From Diphasiastrum complanatum (Eukaryota > Streptophyta > Lycopodiopsida > Lycopodiales > Lycopodiaceae), in contig CM055092.1 of assembly GCA_029204225.1 (NCBI GenBank), forward strand, positions 66,190,923-66,254,922: 64,000 bases of DNA, read 5' to 3'. The translations under genes were made by a program, and so were the position numbers. Positions 1,701-56,798 of this stretch are shown here, piece after piece. The notes below the pieces were generated by a model. It did not search any database. It was not told the origin of the DNA and saw only the letters and a list, made by a program, of their open reading frames with translations. Position 1 is the stretch's first letter. Each line of letters opens with the position of its first letter.

Positions 1701-4700
1701 TTTGTTGATGCACTTTTTAGTGCCTTGAAATGTAACACGGAATTGGAAGCTCAACCTCCAACCACCCACATTCTGTAGGCCCCAGCTTGCAAAAGTGAGG
1801 TGCACCTCATCTCTCATCATTTCGTGCTACAAAGTGCTCTCAAAGTTACCATATATACACTACGGGAGCCAACAACATATGAAAGCTAGCAGCCTTCTTC
1901 ACCATGTCCAATGCATTACCATGGAGATCCTAGAAATTTTTTTACTGTCTTCTAGGAGTAGATTTTCGAACTTTTTCAAGCTACCCATCTTGCTTCAGGG
2001 TTCTAAGCTTTAAGGCATGAGTCCTTCCTCAAGATTAGATAACAATTTCTCACTGCTTTGAGCTCCGGCTACCTCAGGGTACTGTTATGTAACCTATAAC
2101 CCATACTACCTACAGTATATACTATAAACAAATGCAGGTGATTGGGTTTCCAAATTTCTGAGCTATAATTCTTCTTCATGTTGCAATGGTACGAACTTTG
2201 AGACTTTCTGGGACGTCCTTGCCAATTACTAGACACAGCAGCCAGATCCATCATCATATATCCGGCAATGCAAACAGGAATAGCACCAAGAGCTCTACTC
2301 AAGGCTGAGTGCAGTTTGGCCTTCCGTCTTGACTTTGCTTTTTTGCTAAAAAATACAATTTGTACAAGAGTACTGCAGCTGCTATCACGCACTGACACAA
2401 AGAACTATTATTATTGTAGCATAGGTAGTAATTTGCTGGCTACATGGACAACAACTGCCAGGCTAGTTTGAAAACAACTGGCAAGTGCTGAACAGTAGCG
2501 CTATCATATTAGTCATGACTCATAAATCCGAAAGCGCCAAAACTCAATCTATTCAGTTATGAACCAGTTATTGAAATTTGAGTCCCATCATGATCTTCTG
2601 TTGATTCGTGTCCCAATTTGAATTTTTAAATCGTAGACAGGTTTTGGGGTTTGAAGCAACTTCAATTCTTTATTTTACAACTGACAACTGCCCACAAACG
2701 TTGCTCCTATTTTTGTAGCCTTCAAGGACAAATCACAGCCTCTGAGAGTATAATTTAAAGCCTTCAACGGCATATTGTCGCCTGTGTGTGTGTGTGGGGG
2801 GGTGGAGGGGGAGGGGGGGAGTGTAAACGTGTGTGTTTGTGAAACCATTCGAATGCGTTGGAATCCATGTAGTGGTTGCCAGGTGCAACTTCTGAGCAGT
2901 AATCAAAGTTCCACGTCTACATGTCAGGCGGCAGGCCTTGTATGATCGGATCTGTAGAAAATTTCAATTCTCTAGGCTTCCATCCCTTATGGCTTCACGT
3001 GTCTTATTGGCTGCAAGCTGAGTGTAAACAGCCCTTTTGGGTGGTCTAGTATTCATGCTCCTAGACAATGAAAAGGTACTTCATGCCCAGAATTGTAACT
3101 CAGGCCCAGAATTCTAACGTCTACAGTCTTTAGAATCTAGATCTGTATGTCTGCAGTCTCGAGTACATGCCATCGAAACATCTCATGATATGCGAATTTT
3201 GAAAACAGACATATAGGGAGTTCGCATATAATTTCTTCCCCTTGTAGAAGCTGGGCCGAACAAGTTTTTGACTTTCCATACTAGCACCTGAAAACCGGAT
3301 CATGTCGCTGGTTGCTTGATCTTTCATTTATTCACGATAAATCTGTGCGATAGTTCTATATTCAGATGTTTCTGCTTGTTATACTCAATGAGCTATTCAC
3401 GTACATGTCGCAAATGATACGTCAGATCCATAATGATTGAAGGGTAGATGACATGCTCCAATTTTTGCTGTACAACTTGGTTTCATGTTAGTGAAAAAAT
3501 CAAGGAATTATGCTCCCCATCGTTCTGAAGTAGCTCTGCCCCTATTGAAACTTTTGATTCCAGGACATCCTTCCTAAGATATTTCGTACTCAGCATTGTA
3601 AATATCGTGATCCTTAAACGAACCAAGCTCCAGGCCTCGAAAGGGGAAAGAGAACGAAAGAAGGCAAGTGAGATCAGCAAGTCGATATATACTGGAAAGA
3701 TACATCTCAGCTGGTTTGCCGACTACAAAACCATCTCCTACTCGAACAACTCCCTTCAAAAGTCCGGACTTGTGGAAGTGTGATGGACTTGAAGTCAGCA
3801 AACCAGCTAAGATACGTTTTTCCTTGCACTTGACTCTATTAAAAAGTCCAAGGTTTTCGATTGTACAGCTTTGATGTTTCAGCAACGTCGATCACTCTAC
3901 AAGGTATACCTTGCAGAAAGTTTCTATGCTACGAAGAAATTTCAGGATCAAGAGTCTCAAATTTTCGGCGACCGCAGCAAATTAGCTACTGAAGCAGTGA
4001 CTTCCGTGTGGCCATGTGTGCTCATTTTCCCTGCACTTACCTTTAAATTTTGCTCAAAGTATGTAACATGATTTTCAGCTCAAGAATCGCCGGCATGATC
4101 CGAATGAAACAAACAATTACATCTGTCTGAATTTCATAGAGACAGCTAACATTACGGTCCTTTGAAGTTTGTTGCCTCACTTAGAACTTTCTGTGTTCTG
4201 CAGATCTAAGCCATTGACAGCAGTTCGTGAATTTAAGCTCACAAGCACATGGAATCAATACATCAGCAACACAATACAGCCGATCGTAGGTTTCCAGTAC
4301 TGCCACTTATGAGGTAACTTACTTCCATGTGTATCTCTCCTCACAATCAGACAAAGTTTTTAATTTTCTTGCCTTCAGTTCGCATCCAATAAGGTGCTAG
4401 TGTGTGCGGCAGTATTTACTATATATTATACTGTCGACGTTGATAAGGGAACCTCATTATATAACATTCTGGCGGAATAGTACTAGTGTATTTCTGAGTC
4501 TTCTAAGACGTTCTATGTTCTATTATTCTATCCGAGATTGGCGGTAGAAGCTCAACATTCCTTGTTCTGTAATCAAAAGCACAGTCTTAGATCTTTCGAT
4601 TGATAGGAGCAACTTGGTGCAAGCTGAGACTGAGAGCGTTGTTGAATCAGCATACCGTTTATAAAAGGAAAGCAAAGCATTTAAAATTGTGCGTAGCGAT

Positions 4701-33029: not shown

Positions 33030-33600
33030 AGCTCGTCACTTTCATCTTGACCGACGTCCAGCTCAGATCTCAACCGAGACCTCACGCTCCTTCCCTAGCC
33101 GAGTTCCACGACACTCGTCTGGACCGAACGACACCATGTTTCATTCATCTATTGAAACTACACATTCACTCTTGACCGAACCTACTCGCAATATCTTGTA
33201 AATTCTTGAGTTAAATTTCAACCGATGCTCATCGATCAAATCTCACCCCAGCCTTTCCATTGAAATCTCACCTGGAGCATCTGTTCATATCTTGACCGAC
33301 GCCACTCGTCAGATCTCGACTGATGCCACTCGTCAGATTTTGACCGATGCCACTCGTCAGATCTTGACCGACGCCTCTTCTCAGATCTTGACCGACGCCA
33401 CTCGTCAGATCTCGACCGTCGCCTCTCGTCATATCTCGACCTACGCCTCTCGTTAGATCTTGACCGACGCCTCTCGTCAGATCTCGACCGACGCATAATC
33501 TCAGATCTCAACAGATGCCTCTCGTCAGATCTCGACTGACGTCTCTTGTTAGATCTCGACCGACGCATAATCTTCGATCTCGACCGACGCCTTCTGTAAT
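33030..33600 (-). repeat. 24-bp minisatellite, (CTCGTCAGATCTYGACYGACGCCW)n
   Basis: Clear from about 33285 to 33590 with some twelve imperfect 24-bp units; more degenerate copies lie from 33030. The unit length is a multiple of three, so the minus strand stays open (33236-33568) and reads as RRSRSDER-type octads rich in Arg and Ser. I see no start context, splice partner or other domain to prove it is a protein. Each unit carries AGATCT and often GACCGACG. Confidence 0.8.
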
Positions 33601-33834
33601 AGATGGATAGTCATATGTGTCTTTCAATTGAATACTTTTTTTAAATAGAATAATAGCATATTGTGGCCACATGGCAATAGTCATATTGTGTTGATAACTT
33701 GAGCAGTGCTCGAGTTTGAAACAATGTAGTTTGAAAACTACATTGACATAAACATTACAAAAGCAAGGTATGCTAGATCTAATCATATTGATATACTGTG
33801 GTTTGATGCATTTACATGATTGTAGCTTTTAACA

Positions 33835-34434
33835 ATGGCGATGTTCCATTTGCATGTTGCTCTTCCGATGGAATGCACTCCAATTATAAAGAAAAATGTG
33901 AAAGTTGTAGAGAATGTTGCTGCAATAGTTAGAGAATTGAGAATGAATAATCATATGAATATAGATTTGCGGGTGGATTGATCAATTTATCCTAATGATC
34001 CAGCTACCAATTTGTGTCCAGATTTTAAGTTCGTAACTCATCTTCTCATATATGTATGTAAAGGAAATAGCGGATTACTTGGATATTGTCAAAGGTTGCG
34101 TGATATTGGAATGCATAGCATATCTTGTCTTAATCAACAATTACAGTTTGCTAATCAACAATTGCAACGTGCAAATCAACAATTGCTTCATTATGTGCAA
34201 CACACTAGTGCTGAAAACAATGCACTCAAGAATGCTATGTCAGAGTTGAATGCTACAGTCACTACTCTTTGGGGATCAAACCAAGAAATGTTAGAATCCA
34301 TGGAAAGGTTGCGATCCGAGAGTTTAAAATCTGCTGTTGATATAAAAGTTATCAATAAGGCAATGATGAAGAGGAAAAGAAAGAGAGCGCTGATGAAGAA
34401 TATTGATGACCTATATACACATAGCAACAATTAA
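33835..34434 (+). pseudogene. coiled-coil protein of the 33.8-42.9 kb locus
   Basis: One reading frame runs from ATG 33835 to TAA 34434 (about 200 aa), broken by a single TGA at 33979 (codon 49), which is consistent with a CGA-to-TGA change. After a conserved-looking YPNDPATNLCPDF segment it holds a Gln/Asn-rich heptad region with three QQLxxANQQL-type repeats, then further heptads (NALKNAMSELNATVTTL). It ends with a basic MKRKRKRALMK tail that could be a nuclear signal. It lies just upstream of the transposase-like gene and on the same strand. I know no matching family; an accessory DNA-binding or multimerising protein is inference. Confidence 0.55.
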
Positions 34435-34576
34435 AAAAAAAAAGAATTTGAGCATTCAAGTATGTTTTCATATAAACTGTTTATTTGATTTGTATATGTC
34501 ATTTAAGTTTGATTTGCACTTGATAACATGGGTTATTTATTTATTAAACGTAAATTGAGTTTCGTATGTTTGTTGC

Positions 34577-36513
34577 AGATCATGTTTGGTGGCAAAGAAC
34601 TATTTAACAGATCGTTCATGCATTAGATCATCTTTAAGTCATGTTTTACCAAGAAAGTCAGCAAACGAAATGATAAAAAAATGCTCGATTGGAAAAATGA
34701 AAAATGAAATTGTAGAGAATGTTTTGATTAACGTTCAATCATGCTTGGATGCAAATGTGATACAAGGTGCATGTGATGTATCTGGAATTAACAGAAATGC
34801 TTATTCTATTTTTTTTAGAATAGTTAAAAAAGCTTTTTCCCAAGTGATGGTGAAGAAAATTTATCTTTCGCGTCCATATTTGGTAAGATTGACAAAAAAT
34901 TATTATAATAATGGAATGTTCAAAGTAGTTGGCCAACCACTTTATATAACTAAATTATACAAATCAGAATATGGTGAGCTCAATTACAACGACTACAATA
35001 ATATTTTTCTTGATATTGAAAATGTTCTAAAATACATTATTCGATTCTATAAACTAGACGAACATCAAGTAAATGGAAAGATCATTATTGTAATAAAATT
35101 GGATGAATCTGAAATCATCAAGGGTCAAAAGTTGGAACGAGTGAGTGTCACTTTGATGAACAAAATTTCAAATACAAATGATCAAAGTTGTAGTGTTCAA
35201 TCGGAAAATCACATATGGTGGTTGGCGACATTCCATGTATACATTTCAATTTTCATTTAGGATATCGTTATTAACAATTCATACCTTGCTAGTTTTTATT
35301 GACATGTCATGCATTACTTGCATCTCTATAGGTCTTGAAAGAGGACCATAAAATACTTTCATGGATATTTTCAAGAACAAATTATGGCGAGATTATAAAG
35401 AGACATTTGGAGGGTGAGAAATTTACGGTCAAAAACCATGGAAGTTTTCAAATTCAATGGCACCTTGCAGGGGATTTGAAAACATTAAATATATGTATAA
35501 TGTCTCTCATGGGACAACATCAAAGCATCCATGTCTTTATTGCATGAAGGATTGCCACAATATGAATCTGGGACGATCAACAAACACTGGCCCAACACGA
35601 GAAGCTGTAGATCCAAATATGAAAAGTGTTCTGCCAATTCCATTAAAAAATGCTCACATATGCACATTGCATGTTGAGGTTAGTATTATTGAAAAAACTT
35701 ATTTACTTGCATATTCTACTAGCATGGAATCATAAACCGGAGTTTGTGGCTAAAGATTAGGAGGTTGGAGATAGTTCTGTCAAATGCAAGACTACATAAA
35801 GGGAATGTCACTATTGAAAAAGTGACAGACTCTCCGGGAAATAAGGAAAGGTTCCTAATAAGCCATCAATTGGAGGTGCTAAAGCAAGAAGATTCTTATC
35901 CAAGCACACATGCAAAGAATCAAGTGTCGAATACGAAATTTGGAGAGAAATTGTTCAAGCCACACGAACACTAGAAGGAAGTAATCGAGTGGAAAAGAGA
36001 CAAGTGTGGACCAACTTAGACAAACTCATAGGTGTTATCAGAAAAAAAAACCTATCATCAGAAGATATGAGGACTTTGCAAAATCATTGCACCACATTTG
36101 TAAAATTTGTACATGATTGTTGGGGAAAAGACAACGTTACTCATTACATGGTGCTAATCTATATCATTATCTGGTACTTTTTTCATTCAGGCTTATTTTT
36201 TTTCTACTAATGTAACTAATCAAAACTATTGTTTGCAGCACATCCTTCTTCATCATGCAACTTATTTTGCAAAGGAATATGGGAGCTTAAGTATCTGGTC
36301 ATCACAAGGCATGGAAAAATCTCATTGGCAAGCAAGGGGAGCATTTCATAGAGCAACAAATCATGGAGGACACAATTCAAGAAATCAATATTTAGTTCAA
36401 CTTTTTCACTGGTTTGAAAGAAGGGCGCAATTTAGATATCAAGCTAAAAACTCACCAAGTATTACGATTTTTCGAAAGGCATTCAAATTCATAACAAAAG
36501 AGAGATCTTTGTA
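34577..36513 (+). pseudogene. transposase-like protein, intron-bearing, damaged
   Basis: The reading starts after a TTGCAG acceptor-like site as SCLVAKNYLTDRSC and runs to 35260. An intron-like gap ends at TATAG (35331). The next block is WHLAGDLKTLN, and after a frameshift near 35490 TSKHPCLYCMKDC and HICTLHVEVSIIEKTY. A further shift near 35715 gives AWNHKPEF. The last part (35990-36150) splices cleanly across a GT-AG intron 36151-36238 into HILLHHATYF, GMEKSHWQARGAFHR and TNHGGHNSRNQ, ending in TAA. GD-K...PCxxC...LH...E patterns are typical of poorly described eukaryotic transposases. I cannot name the superfamily, and D/E catalytic assignments are inference. Confidence 0.5.
36151..36238 (+). 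other. GT-AG intron in the transposase-like gene
   Basis: Begins GTGCTAATC, is T-rich, and ends TTTGCAG. Removing its 88 bp joins CATTACATG to CACATCCTT in frame (HYM-HIL). Confidence 0.6.
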
Positions 36514-36588
36514 ATATATCAAAATCTATTACAGAAAATTGTTTAATTATTATCATCATTCTCTTCAAGGTTCAGACGGATGGTATTG

Positions 36589-36996
36589 TCATGAAGTAAT
36601 AATCTCCTTTTCAAAGTCATCATATGTGTAATCAACAATGTCAAAAAAATTTGATAAATTTTGAGCAAAAATTGAGAGATTTTTTTCCTCTCTCAAATTC
36701 AAAACATCTTCTATATCATTAAATGAGATATAACTTTCATTATTTATAAAATATAACGGAACATCGAGTAGAGTTAATTGATCAACAGGAGATGCAGATG
36801 GAAGAGAATCAGAGAGGATTATAGAACGAGGTTTATAATCTGAAGCCATAGAAGCTGCAGCGTCAACTCCTATATCAGTATCTGCATCATCTACATCAAC
36901 TGGAGCAGGTGCCAATGCTTCGGTCAATGGAATAGTTGAAAATTCAACAGAGTCATCATCTGGAATCTCAACAGATACGTAAAAGACAAAAGCCAT
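36589..36996 (-). CDS. acidic 135-aa protein, unknown
   Basis: An intact minus-strand frame, MAFVFYVSVEIPDDDSV, with an Asp/Ala-rich middle (VDVDDADTDIGVDAAAS) and a C-terminal part FINNESYISFNDIEDVLNL ... FDIVDYTYDDFEKEI. It is strongly acidic with no signal peptide or membrane segment. It lies tail-to-tail with the transposase-like gene (75 bp apart). AT-rich codons match its neighbours. No family recognised; it could be a last exon only. Confidence 0.45.
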   Translation of the reverse strand: MAFVFYVSVEIPDDDSVEFSTIPLTEALAPAPVDVDDADTDIGVDAAASMASDYKPRSIILSDSLPSASPVDQLTLLDVPLYFINNESYISFNDIEDVLNLREEKNLSIFAQNLSNFFDIVDYTYDDFEKEIITS

Positions 36997-37313
36997 TCCT
37001 TTGATTAGAAGGCAACATATTCTTCTGTGGATATTACAATATATATATATATATTTCTTTTGAAATGGATATCACAATATATATTTCTTTTGATAGAGTA
37101 CTTTCTATTGTGTTTATGCTTAGAGGATGGTTGGAAATGCACAAGGTCCTGAAAATGAACGAAACAAAAAATATATATCCAAAACCGGAGTACTAATAAT
37201 CTACGAAAAATTATCAAGATAAGAAATTAAATTATAACGATTCTCATAAACTAGCTTATCGATATCGAAGGGAGCAAAAAAAATACTTGCAAAATCTCTA
37301 ATTCTCAAATGGA

Positions 37314-37577
37314 ATGTCATTGGCATTCAAAAAATCCACAAGTTTGTTATATGAGGACATGGAGAAACAAGCCATATTGAACCTGATATCGGTTCAGCGC
37401 GACAAAATGATATCGGTTGAGGAATTAAAAATAGTGTGCGCATTGATCCGATATCATTTAGACGAGACTGAAATTTTTCGCGAGCACACGTTAGAAGAGG
37501 CTGATATCGATTCAGTGCGTCTAAATGAATTCGACCGTGCACTGTATGGGAAGGCGCGCGTTGATTCAATATCGTGA
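37314..37577 (+). CDS. small ORF spanning two 71-bp hairpins
   Basis: The 87-codon frame contains both hairpin 1 and hairpin 2, and its TGA stop begins directly after the right arm of hairpin 2. The arms therefore encode parallel peptides (LISVQRDK, CALIRYH, IDSVRLNE, ARVDSIS). Because the repeat is nucleotide-conserved on both strands elsewhere, this frame may be a by-product of it. If translated, it would be a small charged protein. Confidence 0.3.
   Translation: MSLAFKKSTSLLYEDMEKQAILNLISVQRDKMISVEELKIVCALIRYHLDETEIFREHTLEEADIDSVRLNEFDRALYGKARVDSIS
37385..37455 (+). repeat. 71-bp imperfect inverted repeat, unit 1
   Basis: Left arm GATATCGGTTCAGCGCG, right arm GCGCATTGATCCGATATC, outer length 71 bp. 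The outer 8 bp pair perfectly, followed by a T-T mismatch that recurs in other units. An extra left half-site GATATCGGTTGAGG lies inside at 37409. Confidence 0.85.
37503..37574 (+). repeat. 71-bp imperfect inverted repeat, unit 2
   Basis: Left arm GATATCGATTCAGTGCG, right arm GCGCGTTGATTCAATATC(G). It has the same spacing as unit 1 and starts 118 bp after it. Confidence 0.85.
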
Positions 37578-38055
37578 GAAAGAAAGAAAACAAAATGACT
37601 AGTGAGTTCAAAATGAAAGATCACGGAATCGAAATATGGAAAATGGTGCCCATATTTATAGCTGATTTTTGTTGATCACAGCCATACATTTGTCAAATAA
37701 TGAATTGAGGAACACATCCTATATTTATCCACCAATCAGAGTGAGAAAAATTTGTACCTACGCTGGAATACATTAAATAGTCTATCACTTAATTCTATAA
37801 ATCATCATTAGCCTTGATTTAGAATCTATACCTGCATCTAAATACATTAAATAGTCTACCACTAGCCTCATCGAATCATCATTAAGCAAATATGAAATGG
37901 ACAACATCGAAAAACGTGTATGAGGAGAATTATTACAGACTCTTGCCCTATTTAAACAACGTAAAGACGAAATTTTTTCTTTTGAAATAATGTTCATTCA
38001 GAACATTCACATAAGGCGTTCATAATGCGTTCTAATATATTTTCAGTGCGTCTCA

Positions 38056-38126
38056 GATATCGGATCAGCGCGCCTTTGGAGAAGACAATGACTTCTCACT
38101 TGGACTGCGCGCGTCGAATCGTTATT
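38056..38126 (-). repeat. 71-bp imperfect inverted repeat, unit 3 (inverted)
   Basis: Left arm GATATCGGATCAGCGCGC, right arm GCGCGCGTCGAATCGTTAT. The GGATCA arm is on the left and the TTCGA-type arm on the right, the reverse of the other units, so this copy is on the minus strand. Confidence 0.75.
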
Positions 38127-38269
38127 GTAGGAAAAAATGATTTTGAAATTTTTTTAAAATTATTGGAGGGTATTTTGAGTGATCAAAGCTTGATTTGATA
38201 GACTCTTCATATTGTCCAAAGCTAAGGAAAATCTATCGAGTCAAGCTTTGATCATTCATATTATCATCC

Positions 38270-38340
38270 AATATCGGTTCAACGTGCGAGAATAGCCTCT
38301 TTGAGTTTTACATGTAGTATATGTGCATCGATTTGCTATT
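38270..38340 (+). repeat. 71-bp imperfect inverted repeat, unit 4
   Basis: Left arm AATATCGGTTCAACGTGC, right arm GTGCATCGATTTGCTATT. The right arm is the more decayed, but its position keeps the 71-bp span. Confidence 0.7.
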
Positions 38341-38725
38341 GGAAATAATAATGCCCGTTGAAATTTTTCAAATTATAATGATTGGATATAAAAAAAGGTC
38401 AGATATTTATAGCTTAACCTTGTCAATTTTAGCAATACATTGTAGATGTAACCATACTTTTGTAGAATTAATTGTAGATGTGACAATACTTTTGTTGAAA
38501 TTAATTGTGGTCGTTATTATCGACTAATCATTTTGATGAAAGATGGATATTTAATTTGATTTGATTGACAAGCCTCTGAATATCTCGAAGTAATCATCAA
38601 CTTAATCTGAACCTCGGACATCCAAACCACCACGTCTGTAACCATTTCGGAATTTTTCTATATATACAGATGGATGACGCTAAATTTTTTTTGCTTAAAT
38701 TTCTTTTCTTTCTCTACATCCATGC

Positions 38726-38796
38726 GATATCGATTCATTGTGCTCGAAGCAAATTTCCTACGATCCGCTTTTACTCGTGCGTCTCCATCCGCTACC
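38726..38796 (+). repeat. 71-bp imperfect inverted repeat, unit 5
   Basis: Left arm GATATCGATTCATTGTGCTCG; the right arm, GTGCGTCTCCATCCGCTACC, is weakly conserved. Together with unit 6 it forms a pair upstream of the H3-like gene. Confidence 0.6.
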
Positions 38797-38819
38797 AGCT
38801 ATCCATTAGATTTAGTTCA

Positions 38820-38890
38820 GGTATCGGTTCGACGCGCTCGACCTGACTTCTGATCTTGAGTTATCCTTCATCGCGGGCTGATCCAATATT
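38820..38890 (+). repeat. 71-bp imperfect inverted repeat, unit 6, ends 8 bp before the H3-like ATG
   Basis: Left arm GGTATCGGTTCGACGCGC, right arm CGCGGGCTGATCCAATATT. It would lie in the promoter or 5' leader of the H3-like gene, whose ATG is at 38899. Confidence 0.8.
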
Positions 38891-38898
38891 GGATACTA

Positions 38899-39345
38899 AT
38901 GGCGCGGACTAAGCAAACAGCACGAGTCCACCCTGGTGGAATCCCAATCATAGGAGGGAGTAAGGGAAATGCACCACCACCGTCTTGTCCACCACCACCT
39001 CCTCCTAGGCCAAGGGGCAAAAGAAGAGACCCACTCTGGCTCAAGGATATTCGAAAGCTACAGAAGACCAATAATCTTCTGATTCTGAAAGCTTACATAC
39101 AGAGATCCATCAGACAAGTTACAAGAAGTCTATCTATAGATGTGAGATGGACTGCATATGAGGATTTTCATGTGAAATTTTTTTCAGATACTGTTGTTGC
39201 AGCTATCCATGCCAAGAGGGTGACCATCATGCCCAAGAATTTCAACATTGTGTTCAAGCTACGGGACACATATGAAAAATTTGTAGAGTACTTTAGACCT
39301 GCTGCTTCCTCTCCTCTAAAACAAGATTCAAAGAAAAGAAAATGA
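38899..39345 (+). CDS. divergent histone H3-like protein (N-terminal part of an H3/Ulp1 reading)
   Basis: The protein begins MARTKQTARVHPGG, the H3 tail with Lys4 kept and Lys9 changed to Val. The tail then becomes proline-rich (PPPSCPPPPPP) instead of carrying the K14-K27 region. A histone fold follows: DIRKLQKTNNLLI (alpha-N), QRSIRQVTRSLSIDVRW (alpha-1), FFSDTVVAAIHAKRVTIMPK (end of alpha-2 and loop 2, with AIHAKRVTIMPK identical to H3) and RDTYE. Helix 2 is about nine residues shorter than normal. A basic SPLKQDSKKRK end precedes TGA, but the same frame continues into a Ulp1-like region. Canonical H3 is ~136 aa and lacks such an extension. The H3 relationship is certain; nucleosome assembly is doubtful. 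Confidence 0.88.
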   Translation: MARTKQTARVHPGGIPIIGGSKGNAPPPSCPPPPPPRPRGKRRDPLWLKDIRKLQKTNNLLILKAYIQRSIRQVTRSLSIDVRWTAYEDFHVKFFSDTVVAAIHAKRVTIMPKNFNIVFKLRDTYEKFVEYFRPAASSPLKQDSKKRK

Positions 39346-40239
39346 AAGCAATCTCAACCATCCCGGCTTGTTTTTCGTATACAAAGCATGAATGTGTCAA
39401 AGAAGAGGAGGTCTCATGACCCTCCTAATAAAGCGAGAGATTTTTCAAAGCCATCTCCTCTGGATGAGATTCTATCTGCTAGGCAATCTCCTCCCAAGTC
39501 TCATTCTTCTCCTTTTGAATCTTCCTCCCCTAATAAATCTCCCCCTCCTTCAAAATCTCTGTCTCCTCCTACCCCCATAAATATTAGTTCCCCACCTCCT
39601 ATTCTAGGAAATGATTTAGATGATTTTGTAAATGTAAAAGTAGAATCAATTTTAAATGACAATTCTTTTTGTGGTTTATCTGTATTACTTTTGTCACCCC
39701 CTGCACTTGTCTTTGTAAATACTTTTCAATGTGTACAGTATGACCAATTGTTAAACACATATCTTAAAGCTTTAGGTCCTAGATATAGTTTGAAGATGTC
39801 GAAGACCAATGTTGGTCTTCCCCTTTCTACATTAGATACATGTGAATTAAAAAGTAGGGATAAAATGCTAGGTGACAATGTAGGAGGTGGGCCAATTCAG
39901 TACTGGATGGAGTTTTTCTAGACCCCATTGTTTATAGATGTAGCATTGTTTCCCCTTCAATTCATGGCAGTATTTGATTTCCCTAATTTCAAAAGTCTGC
40001 ACGATGATATGCTCCAATATCAGACTGGGGACTCCAATTCTCGTGCTCTCATACATAACAAAGTAAGTGTATTTTTTTCAGATTTTATTAAGTTGAAATT
40101 TTCATATGAATTTTGATTTCACATCGATTCTCATAAATTTATTGTAATCTGATTGCAATGATCATTGGAGCTTATATGTGTTGTCCTTGTACGTCAATGA
40201 TGAGGCTTTGTGTAATCTAGTTTGTTTAAAGATGAACTC

Positions 40240-40241
<2 letters not shown>

Positions 40242-40320
<79 letters not shown>
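40242..40320 (+). repeat. (CA)n microsatellite inside the Ulp1-like gene region
   Basis: About 39 AC units placed right after the His-motif segment. It probably expanded in an intron or after the gene decayed. Confidence 0.95.
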
Positions 40321-40324
<4 letters not shown>

Positions 40325-40425
40325 TGCCAGGAGCCATATCCAAAAAATATTGGAACTCTTTCTAGTAACAAATGCAATAGCATATACGAAGCTAAAAATT
40401 GTTGATGCAGAGGTAAAAATTTATC

Positions 40426-40495
40426 AATATCGGTTCGATGAGCCCTTGTAGTTATTGTTGGTTTTTTTTTAAATCGTGCACGCTGATCCGATATT
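40426..40495 (+). repeat. 70-bp imperfect inverted repeat, unit 7
   Basis: Left arm AATATCGGTTCGATGAGC, right arm GTGCACGCTGATCCGATATT. The first and last bases covary with unit 1 (A-T instead of G-C). Confidence 0.85.
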
Positions 40496-40511
40496 CAAAC
40501 AATATTTTTTA

Positions 40512-40582
40512 GATATCAGTTCGATGCGCGCTTGTTTCTGTTGTCAATTTTATTATAACATCCTGCGCATTGATCCGATATC
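40512..40582 (+). repeat. 71-bp imperfect inverted repeat, unit 8
   Basis: Left arm GATATCAGTTCGATGCGCGC, right arm TGCGCATTGATCCGATATC. It starts 86 bp after unit 7. Both lie between the His and Cys motifs of the Ulp1-like reading. Confidence 0.88.
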
Positions 40583-40718
40583 TCAAAATGTTAAAATTTG
40601 GATACTGCAGTCCTCCCAATAGGTTGATTCTATAAGCTGTGGTTCGTATACGATATGCAATGCCAAACACTTTTTCAATTGGCTTGCACTACATGATGGA
40701 CTTCCTAATCTGGAAGAG

Positions 40719-40830
40719 GTAATCTTAAATCAATAATATTTAATTGTGTTTTTGTTTTTTTTTTCATAATCAAATTACTAATAACTAATCTTTGACTAAT
40801 AACATTTAACTGTGTTTATGTTTTTTTCAG
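40719..40830 (+). other. GT-AG intron in the Ulp1-like gene
   Basis: GGAAGAG|GTAATC donor and a TTTTTTTCAG acceptor. Splicing joins LPNLEE to FKCEGLPNGDNA in frame. Confidence 0.6.
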
Positions 40831-40839
40831 TTTAAATGT

Positions 40840-41047
40840 GAAGGTCTCCCCAATGGAGATAATGCACTTCAAGCAAGAGACCATAAAGCTTGTGATCGAA
40901 AATTCATACGAGACTTCAACAAGGGCAAGCATTGATTCGATATCTGATTGTAGTGGTCACTGGAGTTCAAGTGACTGAAGATCTCCCCAATGGAGATAAT
41001 GCATATCCTGCAGGAGACAATGAATCTTGTTATCGAAAACTCATATT
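40840..41047 (+). repeat. local duplication of the last Ulp1-like exon
   Basis: GAAGGTCTCCCCAATGGAGA (40840) and GAAGATCTCCCCAATGGAGA (40977) begin two ~70-bp copies, which read LPNGDNA...CDRKFIR and LPNGDNA...CYRKLIL. The second copy is in an open frame (40932-41201), so the 3' exon was tandemly duplicated with a 137-bp offset. Confidence 0.75.
40925..40944 (+). repeat. right half-site of the 71-bp repeat at the end of the Ulp1-like gene
   Basis: GGCAAGCATTGATTCGATATC matches a right arm. No left arm lies 71 bp upstream. The TGA inside it is the stop codon of the Ulp1-like reading. Confidence 0.7.
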
Positions 41048-41339
41048 ATCTAGTTGCAATTACATTGTATTTTGCACCATGGAAATGGTGAACATAGAAA
41101 TGAAAGAGCCTCATAGAACAAGTGTTTCATATATTTTCAAAAATGATGTATACAAAAAATTGTATTACATAATACAAAATTCCATAGTTCATAAACTATA
41201 AATCTTCAATTTTGATGGATGTTCCAATATCTTTGTATTTTATATGCTCATTCTGCCTTACTCTTACCTACACAAGAGAAATTGTTTTAGTTAATATATT
41301 TTATGAAATTGATAGACTTCAAAGTAGAAAAAAATGAAT

Positions 41340-41700
41340 ATTTTTATATGGCATAACGTACCTTTACACCATTCAATCGAAATTGATAGTACTGAGGTAG
41401 ATCGAATTGCAACATGTCTAGTTCTGATCGAATGTGATTGAGACACCAATCTTCCTCGACCTCAATCATTGGAGAATGTTGTCATTTTTTTTCACTGTTA
41501 TCTGAAGTTGCTCTTGAGGGTTTATACCAAAATCTTGATCAAGTGGCTTCCAAACATTTTTGCATTTAATCCATCTTCTATAATACAGCAACAAAGTGAG
41601 CATTTGTTTTTTGATGTGATATCTAAATGTCATGGATGAGTAACATACTCTGCACTCAACTTTCTGATTTTGTTTTGATCCCAACCATCATCCAACAGCT
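41340..41700 (-). pseudogene. possible 3' exons of the minus-strand unknown gene
   Basis: Minus-strand readings here include SAEIIVELLDDGWDQNK (just right of 41690) and IEVEEDWCLNHIRSELDML (near 41470-41420). They are interrupted by stops and no convincing splice sites were traced. They may be further exons of the gene at 41876-42540 or a separate decayed gene. Confidence 0.3.
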
Positions 41701-41875
41701 CGACGATTATTTCAGCACTCAAGTCCTTACAAATAAACATTGTTTTCATTCTTCGAACATTGCATTTGGAAAAAAAATCAACAAAAATAGTAAAAGGTAG
41801 ATACCAACTTAATCTATTATTCTTTGATCCAGTGCTATATTTTAATATACTCTGAATATCAATACATAGCCTAGA

Positions 41876-42540
41876 TCAAAAACTTTTTGAAATTGCTACA
41901 TCAGGAGAAATCCATTCCTCACTTGAAAAATATGGTAGAGGATATGACTCTAATCTACCAACTAAACCATTTTTATCATGAAAATAGGTGTGATCATAAA
42001 AGAAAACTCTTGACTCTAAAAGTGATTTTGGAGAACGACCTTTATATTGTAAAATACTAGTATCCAAATGTACGACATCGATTATTCCTACAATCGATTG
42101 AACTGTTTGCCATTCAATGAAATTTGATGGATACAAATCTGCAAAACCAACAAAAACATCACAAGAAAAATATAATTTAAAGAAAATGCTAACTCTAACG
42201 AAATTAAATTTAAAAACTTACAATTGTATTTTCTTCTATCGTTTGGATTCAAATCATGAATGTTGAGCTCATTGTGAAGATAAGCATGTTGAACTAAAAC
42301 TTCCATGATAGATTGACCGGCAGGTGATACTTTAAAATCCATTATCCTGCCTTTCCAAGAGCTTCTATATATGTTATCTGATCTTTTTCTTTTTCGAAAT
42401 GAGCCTTTTGCAGAGGGATGCATCAAGATCCATTGATATTTTTGATATATTCTTGGTATCCATTGATCTTCTGCGTTTTTTTCATTGCAAATATTGATTG
42501 CATCAATGGTTCCTCTTGGTCTCCGATTATGTGTAGCCAT
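41876..42540 (-). CDS. two-exon gene of unknown function
   Basis: Exon 1 (42540-42222) starts MATHNRRPRGTIDAIN and includes DQWIPRIYQKYQWILMHP and a basic RKRKRSD stretch. An 83-bp intron follows, with donor GTAAGT and acceptor TTTTGCAG. Exon 2 (42138-41876) continues in frame as YLYPSNFIEWQTVQSIVGI and VFFYDHTYFHDKNGLVGRL, ending SPDVAISKSF-stop. The joined protein is about 193 aa, intact and undamaged, unlike its neighbours. It shows no membrane segment or signal peptide. I do not recognise the family. It points toward the H3/Ulp1 gene and has similar AT-rich codon use, so it probably belongs to the same locus. Confidence 0.6.
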
Positions 42541-42931
42541 TAGTCAAAAATACGAGTACGCAAGCTGAGAACGAAGAGAATGTAGAGATTGTGAGGTAAA
42601 CCTAAGAATGACAATCCAGAATAAGAGATAGAATGAAAAAAATGAGAGCTATACCTATGAATGACAAGAAGTTCCTTAACTACAAGGATCGGTTAACTAC
42701 AGTTTATGACTATTGATGTCAAATCAAGCTCGATTGTACAATGACGGGCAACATAAGAGTATTCGGGCAGTAACTATGGTCCAATCACAATTGCTTGTTC
42801 TACCCAGCGGGATATTTGAAAATCACAAAAATTTGGCCGAGAAAGTTAAATACAATTTTCGTCCGTCAACCACTGTTACAGTTCATCACAGATGGACACC
42901 ATTCATTAGGACACATAAGCATTGAAAGCGT
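42541..42931. other. right edge of the locus, no clear gene
   Basis: A 70-codon plus-strand frame (42713-42925) has no recognisable domain. At about 42932 the sequence changes abruptly to a truncated gypsy LTR, so the original right end of the locus may be lost. Confidence 0.4.
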
Positions 42932-43163
42932 GCAAATATGAGCTATGGGGATTTCCATTGCTAGTTCTCATGTGCCTTATTTACATGAATCCATGTTCCA
43001 TTTCCATTTATTGTACTCTTTCTTTCATTGCTAATGCAATTCCATTGTGATCTCATTGTTTCTAGCTTTCTATTGATATGCGATCTTGATTGTCTTCTAC
43101 TCTTCTTGCTTTTAGCTTTACTATCATTGTAATTGCTATTAGTTTGGGATTTGGCACATGACA
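42932..43163 (+). repeat. 5'-truncated LTR of copy 2
   Basis: It matches the last ~230 bp of the 3' LTR (51107-51337), from ATATGAGCTATGGGGATTTC to TTTGGCACATGACA. The first ~285 bp are missing at the junction with the 33.8-42.9 kb locus. Confidence 0.88.
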
Positions 43164-43168
43164 ATTCT

Positions 43169-45569: not shown

Positions 45570-47946
45570 TTCAATTTTATTTTTTATTATTAATTTGATT
45601 CCATAGGTTTGTAGAGATTTGTTTAGCTTTCTTTTGCACTTTGCAAGGCATTTGGATAAAAAATGCAAAAGTTATTGCACTTTTCCCAAAAGCTGTCAAA
45701 ATAGGTGACTAGAATTTTGCTTTCACTTGATTTGAATTTTTCAGATTTGATCTGAGTTTTTATTTCAAGTTTCTTTCCGTAGAATTTTAGAGCATTGTTT
45801 TAGCTTTGATCTGATCCATATGGCAGGTCATTTGGATTAGTATCCAAAAAGTTATGACAATTCTTGATTCCTAGCTCTAGTTTTGCTAGTTTTCTTTCTT
45901 CAAACTTTTCAGACATGTTCTGTTGCAAATTTGACCTATCAATTCACATTCAATTATTGATCTGATCCATGCACTCGTAGATTTTGTTGTTAGCTTTTCA
46001 GAGCTATTGAGTTTGTGTGATTTGGATCAATATTGAGAAAGTTATGATCAAATTAGTGGAGATGGGTCAGAATTGCCAAAATTTTGAAAAAAAAAATTAC
46101 AAGTGAAAGAGAAGCACTTCAACTCTGAAGTTTTGTTTCCCTTGTAAAAAATTTTTTAAATTCTTCATTTCGAAGTTTAATTCAGAAAAAAAAACTGACC
46201 TAACCCTACCCACGCCAGCCCTGACCCTAAAAATTAACCAAATATAGAAAAAAAAAAGACCAGCCTCCCTCAGAACTCGTAGAACCCCCAAAACCCTGGG
46301 CGACTTCTTCCAAGAATTCGGGGACTCCCTTCTTCAGGTATGATTTTTCTCTTCGCGACTGCACCCCCCTTTGCGATTTCTTCCTGATGATTTCTTCTCT
46401 TCGAAAATTTTCGCCCCCCTTGCCCCCAGAATATCCCCTCTTGCGAATACCTTCCCCTTCCCCTGGCGAATACCCTCCTCTCGTAAAATCAGTTTTTAAA
46501 TTTTTACAAAGGAAATGGTGATGCCTCACAGAACGTAATTTGTGGGGCAATTTTTTTTTGACAATTTTTTTTTTACAGGCACCTTCCGGACACCAGAAGG
46601 TGCACGTAAAATTATTTACGTTTTTTACATGCACCTTCCGCCCGGAAGGTGTGTGTAAAAAAAAATGTACGTCAAAAAAAAAAGAAAAAAAATGTAAAAA
46701 CGGAATTCACGGCAAGGAAGGGTCGGCTCCTCGGCCCTTCTGCCCGCGGAAGACTGTGTGCCCGGAAGACTGTGCGCCCCAGGGAAAGGGAGGTATTCGC
46801 GAGAGGGAAGGTATTCGCCAGGGAAGGGAGGTATTCACGAGAGGGAGGGTATTCGCCAGGGGAGCGAATACCCTCCCTCTCGTGAATACCTCCCTTCCCT
46901 GGCGAATACCTTCCCTCTCGCGAATACCTCCCTTCCCCTGGGGCGCACAGTCTTCCGGGCCGGAAGGGCCTCGGAGCAGGACCTTCCCCGTGAATACCTC
47001 CCCTGGCCAATACCCTCCCTCTCGTGAATACCTCCCTTCCCTGCGAATACCTTCCCTCTCGCGAATACCTCCCTTCCCCTGTCCCGGCGAATACCCATTT
47101 TCTCCCCACGATTAAACACCCTCCTCTCTCTTCTGGCGAATACCTCGCGAATTCCTCTATATCCTAACCCCCCTCTCCCTACGGCCTACCCCCTCTCAGT
47201 CGCACGCGCCCACCCCCCCCCCCCCCCCCCCTTTTCTCCTATCTCTCTCAGCCGCGCTCCGTGGCCGCCTCCTCCTGCGGAATATTCCACGAATAAGCCG
47301 TAGGAATATTCTATAACTATTCCTTTCCCTCCCTCTCCTTTGTGCTCAAAAAAAAATTGCCGACAATTTTCGGATTTTTTCATGGTTTCAAGTATTTTTC
47401 GTCGAGCACTCCACTATTTCATGGATTTCAAAGTGTTATCCATTTCAATTTGTAAATTTTTTAATACCCTCCCTTATAAATTGTATATAACCCATTTTAC
47501 TAGTATTTCTATAATTTCCATAAATTTCTTGTTTCAGCTTGGATTTCAGTGCAGTAAAAACGAAAAGTGGTCATAACGACAAGCCTAACACTACTGAGCT
47601 ATTGAAATTTTGTAAATATTACTTTTCAAATTATTTTCAAGACCCTATTTTACCTTCAGTCAAAATTCTTTGTGTGTAGTTACAAATTTTCAAATCATCA
47701 TATCATCTCCGTTTTAGATCGGATTCAAACGCTTTAACAAGCAAAATTGTTCATGGTGACAAATTGAACACAACTACTAATTCATTTTAATTTGTTACAC
47801 TTTCCATTCACAGCCACTTTATTCTTCGAGGACTCAGAATCTTTAAGTGGGTGGAGAAGAGCAATTTTACTAGCTTGTAAAATACCATTCTGAATAAATT
47901 TCAGACGGTGAATTCATAGTCCACATGTCTTCACTAGTCATTAATA
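45570..47946 (+). other. leader of gypsy-type copy 2
   Basis: 45570-46200 aligns with 16600-17250 of copy 1. 46300-47240 is GC-rich and filled with inverted repeats, including the palindrome at 46760-46960, two short CACCTTCCG...CGGAAGGTG hairpins near 46578-46652, and a poly-C run near 47211-47231. 47270-47940 aligns again with copy 1 up to the Gag start. The long frames on both strands in 46540-47119 reflect the palindrome and are not genes. Confidence 0.6.
46760..46960. repeat. 201-bp near-perfect palindrome
   Basis: The left arm starts GCCCGGAAGACTGTGCGCCCC and the right arm ends with its complement GGGGCGCACAGTCTTCCGGGC. Between them the units GGTATTCGCGAGAGGGAAGG, GGTATTCGCCAGGGAAGG and GGTATTCACGAGAGGGAGG reappear inverted around a centre near 46860. 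More direct copies of the GAATACCTCCCTTCCC unit follow to ~47110. Arms are ~98 bp, with a central spacer of only a few bases. Confidence 0.9.
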
Positions 47947-50821: not shown

Positions 50822-51337
50822 TGTCATGTACTTTTAGTACATCAGTGCTTTTCAAGGCAATATAATATCCATTGTAAACTTTGTAGGCCCAAAGGGAAGA
50901 ACAAGGCGGTTCTCTCTTTAGGCCCTCCAAAGTAATTAATAAGAACAAGGGCCCAATGTAGCCTAAATAGTACTTAACAAGGGTTAACTATCCCTCAAGA
51001 TAGTTAAGTTTAGTTAAGTGAGAGCATTGTTTATAATTAGACAAGAGACATCAATTTGTGGATCTTTTGGCTCATTTTCAAGTGAGAGCTTCTTGCTTCC
51101 TCCTTGTGAATATGAGCTATGGGGATTTCCATTGCTAGGTCTCATGTGCCTTATCTACATGAATCCATGCTCCATTTCCACTGATTGTACTCTTTCTTTC
51201 ATTGCTAATGCAATTCCATTGTGATCTCGTTCTTTCTATCTTTCTATTGATATGCTATCTTGATTGTCTTGTACGCTTCTTGCTTTTAGCTTTACTATCA
51301 TTGTAATTGCTATTAGTTTGGGATTTGGCACATGACA
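50822..51337 (+). repeat. 3' LTR of copy 2, 516 bp
   Basis: Starts TGTCATGTACTTTTAGTAC and ends GGCACATGACA. The last 230 bp match 42932-43163, and the whole is homologous, reversed, to 57966-58499. The start also matches 16464 and 22139. Confidence 0.88.
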
Positions 51338-52073
51338 GTTATCCAAAGACATGTGCCCCAGAACATAGGCAGATCAGCAAGAAATGTGCAAGTACCCTTA
51401 TTAGTCTACCATAGGTTCTCTCATGTACTCTATGATCTGCACACGACCTGATCTAGCATATGTTGTAAGCACACAATTCATGTCCAATCCAGGCCTACAA
51501 CACTGGAAAGCTCTACAAAGAGTTCTGAAGTACATTCAATCCTCAAAGCACTATGCCTTGAGTTACAACGGAAATATAAAAGCTGCACTCTCTTCGATTA
51601 CCTATTCTGATTCAGACTGGGCAGGAGACATAGATACTAGAAAATCCACCTCTGGCTACATTTGCTTTCTTGTAGGAGGACCCATTTCATGGAATAGCAG
51701 GAAGCAGAAATGCATTTAATTATCCTCTACGGAATCAGAATATGTAGCAGCTACGTCAACAGTGAAGGAGATTTTATGGCTTAGAAGACTACTACAAAAT
51801 CTGAGATTCCCACAGGTTAGTCCAACTATACTCCAATGCGACAATCAGAGTTGTATAGCTTTGTCGTTGAACCGACGAACTCACACAAGGACCAAACATA
51901 TAGAGGTTCAACTTCATTTTCTCAGAGAGAAGGTTCAGAATGAAGACGTTGCACTAAGTTATTGTCGCACCGACAGTATGTTGGCTGACATTCTGACAAA
52001 ACCATTGTCAAGGGACAAACATTCTACTCTAGTAGAATTGTTAATTCTCAATTTGAGTCCAGATTCATAGCAG
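51338..52073 (+). pseudogene. copia reverse transcriptase end and RNase H
   Basis: The reading contains SLMYSMICTRPDLAYVVS, the end of copia RT, then the RNase H domain: YSDSDWAGDIDTRKSTSGYI with its first Asp, SSTESEYVAATSTVKEILWLRRLL with the Glu, and LQCDNQSCIALSLN with the next Asp. It ends in KHIEVQLHFLREKV and DILTKPLSRDKH. RNase H removes the RNA template. A TAA near 51717 breaks SRKQKCI|LSSTE. The RT core upstream has been displaced by the gypsy-type insertion. Confidence 0.88.
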
Positions 52074-53701: not shown

Positions 53702-54530
53702 ATGGCACCTCTGGGAGGATATCTTCTAGAAGCAAATGAAAGACTAAATACTTCTAATTACTCAATTTGGAAGTTCAGAATGGATTCTATTTTGATACTC
53801 CAAGATGTTATGGATATTGTGCTTGGTGTTGAGGAGGAGCCTCAAGCACAGGCTAAAATTCCTAAGTATAGGAAGAGAGCTAGAATGGCTCTACATTTCA
53901 TTCAGATGAATGTATCTAATGAAATTCTGAGAGAGATAGGATCTTGCACTATAGACAAAGAAGCTTGGGATGCACTTAAGTCTATCTATGAAGCAAAAAA
54001 TACTTCTAGAATACTCACTCTTAGGAATCAGATTTTTCAAAGTTTCCAAAGAAGTGAAGAGAGTGCATCAAACTATGTTCTGAGAGTTAAAGATTTACAT
54101 AGAGAGCTTTCCTGTGTTGGTGTTACTATTAACCAAGATGAGCTAGTTAAAGTCATTTTAAATCGTTTGAGAGATGACTATGATAATCTTGTTCAGTCTT
54201 TTGCCATTAAGGAGGAGTTGCCTAATCTAGAAACTCTCCAAAGAATTCTTATTTCTGAAGAATCTAGACAAAGCTACAAACTTTCTAGGATGAACAAACT
54301 TCCGCTCGGTAGAAGTGCCAAACTCTCTTTGTCAAAGACAAGCATAAAGGAAGGAGTAAGAACCAGTTCTCTCAAGCATCCAACAAAGACAAAGCCAAAG
54401 ATCGAGAGAAAGATGGTGAAGAGGATGATTCATCTCATCCTTCTACTTCAAAGACTAAGAAGAAGAAAGTGAAGTGTTTCTTCTGTGGCAAAAAGGGGCA
54501 CTATGCCTCTAATTGCTTTAAGAAGAAAAA
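53702..54530 (+). pseudogene. Ty1/copia Gag with zinc knuckle
   Basis: The frame begins MAPLGGYLLEANERLNTSNY and has the Gag core SIWKFRMDSILI, EAWDALKSIYEAK and DELVKVILNRLRDDYDNLV. A frameshift near 54300-54320 moves the reading into the frame that carries the lysine-rich SKTKKKKVK and the CCHC knuckle CFFCGKKGHYASNC (54475-54516). This is the RNA-binding coat protein. Gag and Pol would be one polyprotein in copia. The copy is otherwise well preserved over 250 codons. Confidence 0.88.
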
Positions 54531-55140
54531 TCAACTCAAGCAAGCTAATCTCTCCAAAGAGATTGAAGAAGAATCTATTGCAAGTGATGGAGAAGGATCA
54601 CTTATGGTGTCCAGTTTTTCTTCATCACCTTTCAAGAAAGATGGAGCTTGGTACATAGATAGTGGAGCTTCTTCACATATGTGCTATTCAAAGGAGTCTT
54701 TTGACTCAATTGTACCTTACAAAGGACTTACGAGATCTATTTACACTGCTAATGATCATGAGTGCTCTATAGAAGGAATTGGCAACATTCCATTGAAAAA
54801 GTTCTTGCACTCTCTAATGTTCTTTTCATTCCAAAACTTACAAAGAAGTTGATTAGTGTGGGAAAGTTGCTTGATAATGGTTGTGATGTAAAGTTCAACT
54901 CCAATACTTGCTTTATCAAGAAAAATGATGAGATCCTAGCTGATGGATCTAGATGTGGTGGAATTTTTAAGTTGAATTCTTATGAGAATGCTTACCTTTG
55001 TGAAGTTGCTTTGTTATCTAAGGAGGCGTTGTGGCATAGAAGGTTGGGGCATCCTAGCATTAAATCTATGTCTTTCTATGGTCAAGAAAGTGAAGGCAAT
55101 TGGTCTTCCAAAATCTTTTTCCAAAGATTTCAAGCCTTGT
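54531..55140 (+). pseudogene. copia protease and pre-integrase
   Basis: The protease active site AWYIDSGASSHM (near 54645-54680) is followed by SIYTANDHECSIEG. A frameshift near 54800 moves to the frame reading LFIPKLTKKLISVGKLLDNG and then LWHRRLGHPS, the pre-integrase zinc box. Another shift near 55070 leads into the integrase frame. The family match to 8908-9711 is clear. Confidence 0.85.
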
Positions 55141-56274
55141 GAGGCTTGTGCTATTGCAAAATCACACAGAAAGCCATATCAGAAGTCTTTTATAAAGAAT
55201 GCTCATCCTTTGGAACTCATACACTCAGATGTACATTTTTTCTCTTCTAAAAGTATTGGTGGTGCAACATGTTTTGTCACCTTTATTGATGACTTTACTA
55301 GATATACTTGGTTGTATCTACTTTCTTCAAAGGCTATGGTTTTTTATCACTTCCTAATCTTAAAAGCTTATCTTGAGAAACAGTTTCCTTTCAAAGTTAA
55401 AGCTTTAAGATGTGATGGAGGAGGTGAATACATCTCCAACAAGTTTCATGAATACTGTGAAGGTGAAGGAATAAAGAGAGAGTTTTCTTGTGCTTATTCT
55501 GCATCTCAAAATGGAGTTTCTGAGAGGAAAAACAAATCTTTATGTGAATATGCTAAAACAATTCAAGTTGAAGCTTCTTTGCCTATTGAATATTGGGGTG
55601 AAGCTATAAATTGTGCAAACTATTTGTGCAATAGATTACCTCACAATGCACTTGCTGGAAAATCACCTTTTGAAGTCTTGTTTAAGAAGAAACCTAAGGT
55701 AGATTACCTTAGAGTTTTTGGTTGTGCTTGCTTTGTTCATGTGCCCTTGGAAACAAAGAAAAGAGATGATCCTAATTCTATTAAAGTGATCATGGTTGGA
55801 TATGCATCCAACAAGAAAGCTTACAGAATCTATGTTCCCTCTACCTCAACAACAATTGAGAGTAGGGACGTTATCTTCCATGAGGATCAAAAATACATTC
55901 TTGAGGAGGCCGAGTTCAAAGATTCTCACAAAGATACTCCAATCATCACCCTTGAAGTCTATCATGGAGAGATGGGGCCAAGAATTGAGGAGCAGTCACC
56001 TGGAATCTTTTCACCAAGGAGATCTCAAAGAGAAAGATCCGAGCCTAGGAGGCTTACCTATGAAGAAAGAGGCAAGCAAGTGGAAATCAACTCCACTTAT
56101 TGTGCTTATTTTATTTCTCATGAGGAGCCAAAGGATGTATATGATGCACTCAACTCAAAGGAATGGTACCTTGCTATGAAGGAGGAATATAATGCTTTCA
56201 TTGCCAATAAGACATGGAAGCTTGTGGATCTTTCATCCAACAAGCACACCATTGGTTGCAAGTGGATTTTTTGA
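55075..56274 (+). pseudogene. copia integrase and start of reverse transcriptase
   Basis: The frame holds CEACAIAKSHRKPY, then the integrase core: HSDVHFF and FVTFIDDFTRYTWLY, ALRCDGGGEYISNKF (Asp), AYSASQNGVSERKNK (Glu), then YWGEAINCANYLCNRLP and RVFGCACFVHVP. A linker (SPRRSQRERSEPRR) follows, then RT start EWYLAMKEEYNAFIANKTWKLVD and GCKWIF, broken by a TGA at 56272 where related elements carry Lys or Arg. About 400 codons are undamaged. Confidence 0.9.
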
Positions 56275-56706
56275 GTCAAGTACAATCAAGATGGCACAAT
56301 CAACAAGTACAAGGCTAGACTTTGTGCTAAAGGTTTTGCTCAAGTTTATGGACTTGATTATGAGGAGACTTTTGCTCCAGTTGCAAAGATGATATCAATT
56401 AGAATCATAATTTCTGTTGCTTGTTTTTTCAATTGGCAAGTTCTTCAACTAGATATCTCTAATGCATTTCTAAATGGATATCTAGAAGAAGAGATTTATA
56501 TGGATCAGCCTATTGGATTCATCCATGAAAAAGACAAAGTTTGCTTGCTCTTCAAAAGTTTATATGGACTAAAGCAAGCTCCAAGGTCATGGTATTCTCG
56601 ACTTAACACCTTTCTTGAGTCACTAGGATTTAATCTTAGTAACTATGATCCTTTCTTATATGTCAAATTTTTTGATAAAGATATTGTCATCCTTCTTATT
56701 TATGCT
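56275..56706 (+). pseudogene. copia reverse transcriptase core, truncated before YVDD
   Basis: Continues in frame after the TGA: VKYNQDGTINKYKARLCAKGF, YEETFAPVAKMISIR, LQLDISNAFLNGYLEEEIYM (first catalytic Asp), and LYGLKQAPRSWYSRL. The expected YVDD catalytic pair is lost: the reading reaches DIVILLIYA and then enters LTR-derived sequence. RT of this copy cannot have been active after the rearrangement. Confidence 0.9.
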
Positions 56707-56798
56707 GTAGCTATCTCATGCCATTTTGGATCCAAATATTTTTTGCTTGTTATCTCTCAATCGTTCTCTCTCTAACTCGTGTTGAGGCTAATGCTAAA
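56707..56798 (+). repeat. LTR-derived segment inserted in copia RT
   Basis: GTAGCTATCTCATGC through ACTCGTGTTGAGGCTAATGCTAA matches 52641-52721 in the LTR region, with a short extra TCAATCGTTCTC. It replaces the RT end and most of RNase H. Confidence 0.8.

Follow-up and report, generated by a model that had tools for sequence, protein, structure and literature searches.

What does a transposon do with a histone? The question is raised by an open reading frame (ORF) that opens like histone H3, at positions 38899–39345 of a 64,000-nucleotide stretch of the genome of the clubmoss Diphasiastrum complanatum (contig CM055092.1 of assembly GCA_029204225.1; this whole stretch is the window below). 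The ORF lies in gene C of a multi-gene transposon of ~10 kb with inverted-repeat ends starting CATTAGGGG. Transposon silencing runs largely through histone H3 marks. Our comparison of the window copy with others across the genome suggests that a large transposon family keeps its own H3-like gene by selection, a home-made histone for acting on chromatin.

The H3-like ORF and the longer frame of gene C

The reported ORF (38899–39345, plus strand) encodes 148 amino acids, with MARTKQTAR at its start, AIHAKRVTIMPK near its end and a terminal KRK before the stop. It matches the Pfam family Histone (PF00125, cut-off 26.4 bits) with E = 3e-14 and 53.8 bits, an undamaged copy from another locus (L032) scores 73.2 bits, and the top PDB sequence match of the window ORF is H3 (E = 2.3e-15). 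Kinship with H3, from which the original prediction derived the ORF, is borne out by these matches, and the ORF is by sequence a genuine H3-family protein. It has diverged: of 802 database matches at E ≤ 0.001, the best 120 are at most 41% identical and include no close sibling. The predicted substitutions also hold in the window ORF, with Lys9 replaced by Val, Lys14 by Ile and the K18–K36 stretch by a Pro-rich run. A chance ORF is ruled out by the Pfam match and by the shortage of stops described below, and a feature peculiar to the window by a whole-genome search that yielded 149 further copies.

Two other traits that had been ascribed to the protein prove to be damage to the window copy. 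Helix 2 is 9 residues shorter than in H3, but 27 nt are missing here (alignment codons 85–93; plus strand, between 39150 and 39151, a placement that depends on the alignment) from the window copy alone among 39 aligned, L024 having a shorter gap at this place. The length of 148 amino acids is likewise secondary. Followed from 38899 as far as 40062, the frame of the ORF comprises 388 codons with 2 stops; Markov sequences of equal composition have 22.8 on average, none of 5000 of them was as stop-poor, and L032 is without a stop over 404 codons. Beyond the H3-like domain, which is delimited from MARTKQTAR to the TGA and attested by Pfam, the PDB match and the genomic copies, the frame continues on the plus strand with a linker rich in Ser and Pro and then a C-terminal part (39346–40062; 239 codons with a single stop where 14.5 are expected, and open in L032). 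The one further stop there is a TAG at 39919–39921. The codon after alignment position 157, where the window has its terminal TGA, is CGA in 22 of 39 copies, CAA in 7, TGA in 5 including the window copy and something else in the remaining 5; as CGA is the commonest, the TGA fits decay of a CGA, common to four other copies. The scarcity of stops argues that the reported ORF is the N-terminal portion of a longer protein, an H3 variant that a family of DNA transposons encodes. Its C-terminal part has no Pfam match, the histone being the sole match in gene C. In one locus (L031) the H3-like frame, from position 4296, runs on into an apparent Copia polyprotein, a 558-amino-acid open frame produced by chance insertion.

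Selection and conserved residues among the copies

Among the 7135 first-look candidates from the search of the 1.74-Gb assembly, 150 were scored, every one of them a match: the window copy together with 149 more at 73–83% identity to it. Counted by eye, at least one stop interrupts the H3-like domain in 112 of the 150 and none in 38. For alignment we took the 30 loci of 3.4 kb most similar to the window copy (which is itself one of them, L001) and 12 loci of 9.9 kb chosen for a stop-free domain; three of the latter duplicate L002, L005 and L011, leaving 39 aligned copies, or 31 non-redundant ones after removal of those at least 98% identical. The 39 are thus a non-random sample of one searched genome, made up of window-like loci and loci with a stop-free domain.

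Ratios of nonsynonymous to synonymous divergence (dN/dS) were calculated by the Nei–Gojobori method for 734 pairs of the 39 copies, with codons containing stops or gaps excluded; the pairs share branches, so the bootstrap ranges serve as a guide only. By class of synonymous divergence, dN/dS falls from 1.04 (dS 0.02–0.1) through 0.57, 0.36 and 0.28 to 0.20 (dS ≥ 0.45, 22 pairs). A second pooling gives 1.03 for 111 recent pairs (0 < dS < 0.1) and 0.27 for 306 deep pairs (dS ≥ 0.3; codon bootstrap 0.21–0.37). Within the deep pairs the ratio is 0.22 in the histone fold (0.15–0.35), 0.51 in codons 10–40 (0.29–1.14), 0.21 in codons 134–157 (0.12–0.52) and 0.18 in codons 1–9 (0.03–1.08), a range with which dN/dS does not establish selection on these nine tip codons alone. 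A ratio near 1 in recent pairs and of 0.20–0.27 in old ones points to purifying selection during element activity, clearly so for the histone fold, and the pattern fits a gene that is required while elements are active and decays after insertion. The original prediction had staked itself against an ORF found only here with neutral dN/dS; with 149 other copies, and ratios of 1.03 in recent pairs, 0.27 in deep pairs and 0.22 in the fold, the ORF is not a single occurrence, nor is it a broken copy that evolves in a purely neutral way.

The residues kept and lost are as telling. Retention of K4 and loss of K9, noted at the outset for the window ORF alone, extend to the whole family: the K4 position is Lys in 39/39 copies and the K9 position in 0/39 (Gly 19, Val 15, Ile 4, Leu 1). 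At the K14 position Lys is again absent (0/39), all 39 copies having Ile. Codons 10–40 hold a mean of 0.13 lysines per copy, with a maximum of 1, in the 31 non-redundant copies. Among these 31 the tip is largely preserved, with Thr3 in 31, Gln5 in 30 (the other has a stop), Arg8 in 28 and Arg2 in 22; Ala7 of H3 is Ala in 18 and Thr in 12. Within the fold, Trp84 and Thr75 are each present in 39/39 copies.

Palindromic units and anatomy of the element

Gene C is surrounded by recurring palindromic units. A 71-bp unit, formed by the 17-bp motif GATATCGGTTCAGCGCG and an inverted copy of it at an offset of 54 bp, recurs on both sides of the gene. The motif occurs 8 times in the window at ≤3 mismatches, against 0.03 expected; at ≤4 mismatches there are 12 sites, all within 37385–40582, which pair as inverted repeats, five pairs at the 54-bp offset and one at 53. 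The six units lie at 37385–37455, 37503–37573, 38056–38126 (its right arm weak, with 5 mismatches), 38820–38890 (ending 8 bp upstream of the gene C ATG), 40426–40495 (the unit with the 53-bp offset) and 40512–40582. Unit pairs flank the gene in 13/13 sequences (the 12 long loci and the window copy), 2 to 7 in each and mostly at the 54-bp offset, and recur near −1440, −1320, −79, +1520 and +1608 relative to the ATG, not every unit being present in each locus. In comparisons of 13–34 copies per unit, the arms of units 1, 2 and 4 are better conserved than their spacers, which does not hold for units 5 and 6. When the long loci covering a given region are pooled, identity to the window copy is 93.5% for gene A, 89.2% for gene B, 83.0% for the unit-bearing promoter region, 87.5% for the H3 part of gene C, 88.0% for the rest of gene C and 93.2% for gene D, so that the units sit in the fastest-changing part of the element.

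The element is a DNA transposon with terminal inverted repeats (TIRs). The window retains 33745–42936 of it: in 8 loci homology to it sets in at 33745 or 33746, and in 3 it stops at 42936. Other copies reach the inverted-repeat ends, which lie up to ~336 bp beyond the left limit and ~55 bp beyond the right one and have both been lost from the window copy. To the left the copies agree with one another for up to ~336 bp in five cases and for 58–182 bp in three others, to the right for 55 bp in two and 24 bp in a third. Left ends, visible in 5 of the 8 copies examined, read CATTAGGGGAAATATGGGCTCAAAATGGGCCC with small variants; right ends, in reverse complement, start CATTAGGGGATATTAGAACTCAAAATGGGCCC in L039; L040 differs from this by one change and L035 has a shortened form, while three of six right-end stretches examined are without the end pattern. 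The copy on contig C7, the sole one in which both ends were seen (~10.0 kb apart), has no clear target site duplication. These ends and the copy number support the transposon context that had been claimed for the ORF. Two segments found in other copies, ~650–700 bp between genes A and B and ~480 bp near 40908, are absent from the window copy.

The gene order is A (plus strand), B (minus), C (plus) and D (minus). Gene A (33826–36514) is broken and apparently has introns, its open pieces being traced by eye; it is probably the transposase, and its motifs resemble those of a DDE transposase. Gene B (36589–36996) encodes an acidic protein and is longer elsewhere, with a 285-codon open frame in L050. 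Gene D (41200–42543, bounds approximate) is also broken, with an ORF at 42088–42540 and further open pieces. None of the pieces of genes A, B and D, which are broken or partial, exceeds a Pfam cut-off, and among them there is no match to a Pfam transposase or hAT domain.

Repeats of other kinds lie in and around the element. A long CA repeat (40242–40320) falls within it, shorter CA or TG runs occupying the equivalent site in other copies, and a minisatellite of 24-nt units in 12 overlapping copies (33237–33620) stands immediately to its left. Its right end is abutted by one of two 232-nt copies, 95% identical (42935–43166 and 51109–51340), that by eye resemble the end of a Copia long terminal repeat followed by a tRNA primer site. 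Farther off are a near-perfect inverted repeat (46760–46960; 97-nt arms, 99% complementary, 7-nt spacing) and ORFs that by eye resemble the gag, integrase and reverse transcriptase of a separate Copia-type element (53702–56775).

The proposed role of gene C and its relation to known systems

We tentatively read the gene C protein as an element-specific chromatin factor with an anti-silencing function, the mechanism being suggested by the anatomy. The protein would act on the chromatin of its own element: guided to the palindromic units or deposited in their vicinity, it would there build or mimic nucleosomes with a readable K4 on which no silencing methylation of K9 or K27 is possible, and the promoters of genes B and C would stay open. 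In its anti-silencing effect it would work like VANC of the VANDAL elements, to which it is unrelated; the pieces of genes A to D, which are partial, gave no Pfam match to the VANC-type domain (DUF1985, Pfam PF09331). We lean towards this role because dN/dS drops from the most recent pairs (1.04) to the oldest (0.20) and reaches 0.22 in the fold, because K4 is universal where K9 and K14 are absent and codons 10–40 are nearly free of lysine, because palindromic pairs occur in 13/13 sequences, one pair of the window copy stopping 8 bp short of the ATG, and because the unit region changes fastest, as described for VANC targets. The fullest form of the idea, which we regard as doubtful, is of a transposon family dressing its own chromatin: an H3 variant that retains the K4 tip but hardly any other lysine of the tail would be sent to palindromic arrays specific to the element, in the element's promoters, and would block silencing of the element through K9 and K27, a histone-based and sequence-directed kind of anti-silencing.

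A close rival to the chromatin factor is a DNA-binding regulator built on the histone fold. Such a sequence-specific regulator or transposition accessory would use the fold as a DNA-binding or dimerising module at the units, outside nucleosomes, to control the element genes or transposition. Inverted paired sites at a fixed offset around the gene would suit a dimeric binder, and selection extends across the whole fold; retention of K4 in 39/39 copies and loss of the later lysines would go unexplained, and we rate this role as possible but rather unlikely. Simple carriage is a different matter. That a fragment of a host H3 gene was captured by chance and copied along without function accords with the stops in 112 of the 150 scored domains and the neutral evolution of recent pairs, and passages of PMC6710886 describe that H3 copies captured by hAT elements of fungi can undergo mass decay; the ratios of 0.20–0.27 in old pairs and several residues invariant in 39/39 copies make a mere passenger very improbable.

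The fold raises one more alternative, that of a centromeric affinity. Loop 1 reads DVRWT, with Trp (39/39 copies) as in the rice and Brassicaceae CENH3s compared, and the helix-1 Thr75 is CENH3-like, again in 39/39; the family also shares a divergent tail with plant CENH3. A CENH3-like domain could steer element proteins, and hence insertions, to centromeric or other special chromatin. However, the family has no extra loop-1 residue relative to H3, unlike CENH3; it begins ARTKQT as H3 does, where CENH3 has ARTKH, resembles H3 around AVHAKRVTIMPK, and carries a long extension at the C-terminus. The H3 profile outscores the CENH3 profile in 39/39 copies (mean 81.0 versus 69.9), a test that favours H3 and is not decisive. 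The score was dropped as an argument against a CENH3 origin, since the H3 model gives rice CENH3, too, the higher value (136.6, versus 133.1 with the Brassicaceae-only CENH3 model). The tree of 55 rows is unrooted, falls into three groups and cannot place the family; H3 and CENH3 are both candidate ancestors. A predicted model of the L032 copy, compared with the histone fold of helices N, 1, 2 and 3, has helices at 46–58, 64–78, 87–115 and 121–130, with weak structural matches to H3 chains. With canonical H3 the family shares the N-terminal tip, the Pfam core histone and, if the predicted model holds, the helix order; it differs in being ~40% identical, without K9 and K14 and with almost no other tail lysine, and in forming a longer protein. 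We consider CENH3-like targeting improbable.

Should the chromatin-factor reading of gene C be true, an element that carries its own H3 variant, with the silencing-mark lysines gone and K4 kept, would be a direct move in the arms race between transposon and host, and would serve as a test, set up by nature, of which portions of H3 are enough for it to function. With at least 150 copies in one genome, the family is amenable to chromatin, expression and methylation assays.

For the arrangement of genes and arrays the nearest parallel is the VANDAL/VANC system of Arabidopsis, in which, according to passages of PMC5735166 and PMC10398659, fast-changing VANC target motifs lie within the introns of VANDAL genes and upstream of these genes. 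Both place element genes beside fast-diverging arrays of a short noncoding motif. This is a likeness of arrangement: the present element has TIRs, whereas VANDALs are described, in the part of PMC13317346 available, as non-TIR MULEs, and anti-silencing, the role ascribed to the VANC proteins, is here a proposal. For the histone itself the precedent is fungal. No plant transposon encoding a histone was found among the open-licence PubMed Central matches listed, a search whose scope leaves subscription journals and preprints outside. Passages of PMC3538342 describe H3-like genes in hAT transposons of Pyrenophora tritici-repentis, and passages of PMC6710886 in hAT elements of Pseudocercospora fijiensis and relatives. 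There, as in D. complanatum, an H3-like coding sequence sits in a DNA transposon with TIRs and has multiplied with it. The fungal elements, as far as these passages go, carry domains of a hAT transposase, and those of P. fijiensis also show a target duplication of 8 bp, whereas here no Pfam transposase domain was matched in the partial gene pieces and no duplication was resolved; the H3-like domain here, in turn, heads a longer frame, comparison of its old copies shows purifying selection, and palindromic units surround the gene. Capture of H3 by DNA transposons is, on these accounts, already known from fungal hATs, and the present family is a further variant of it.
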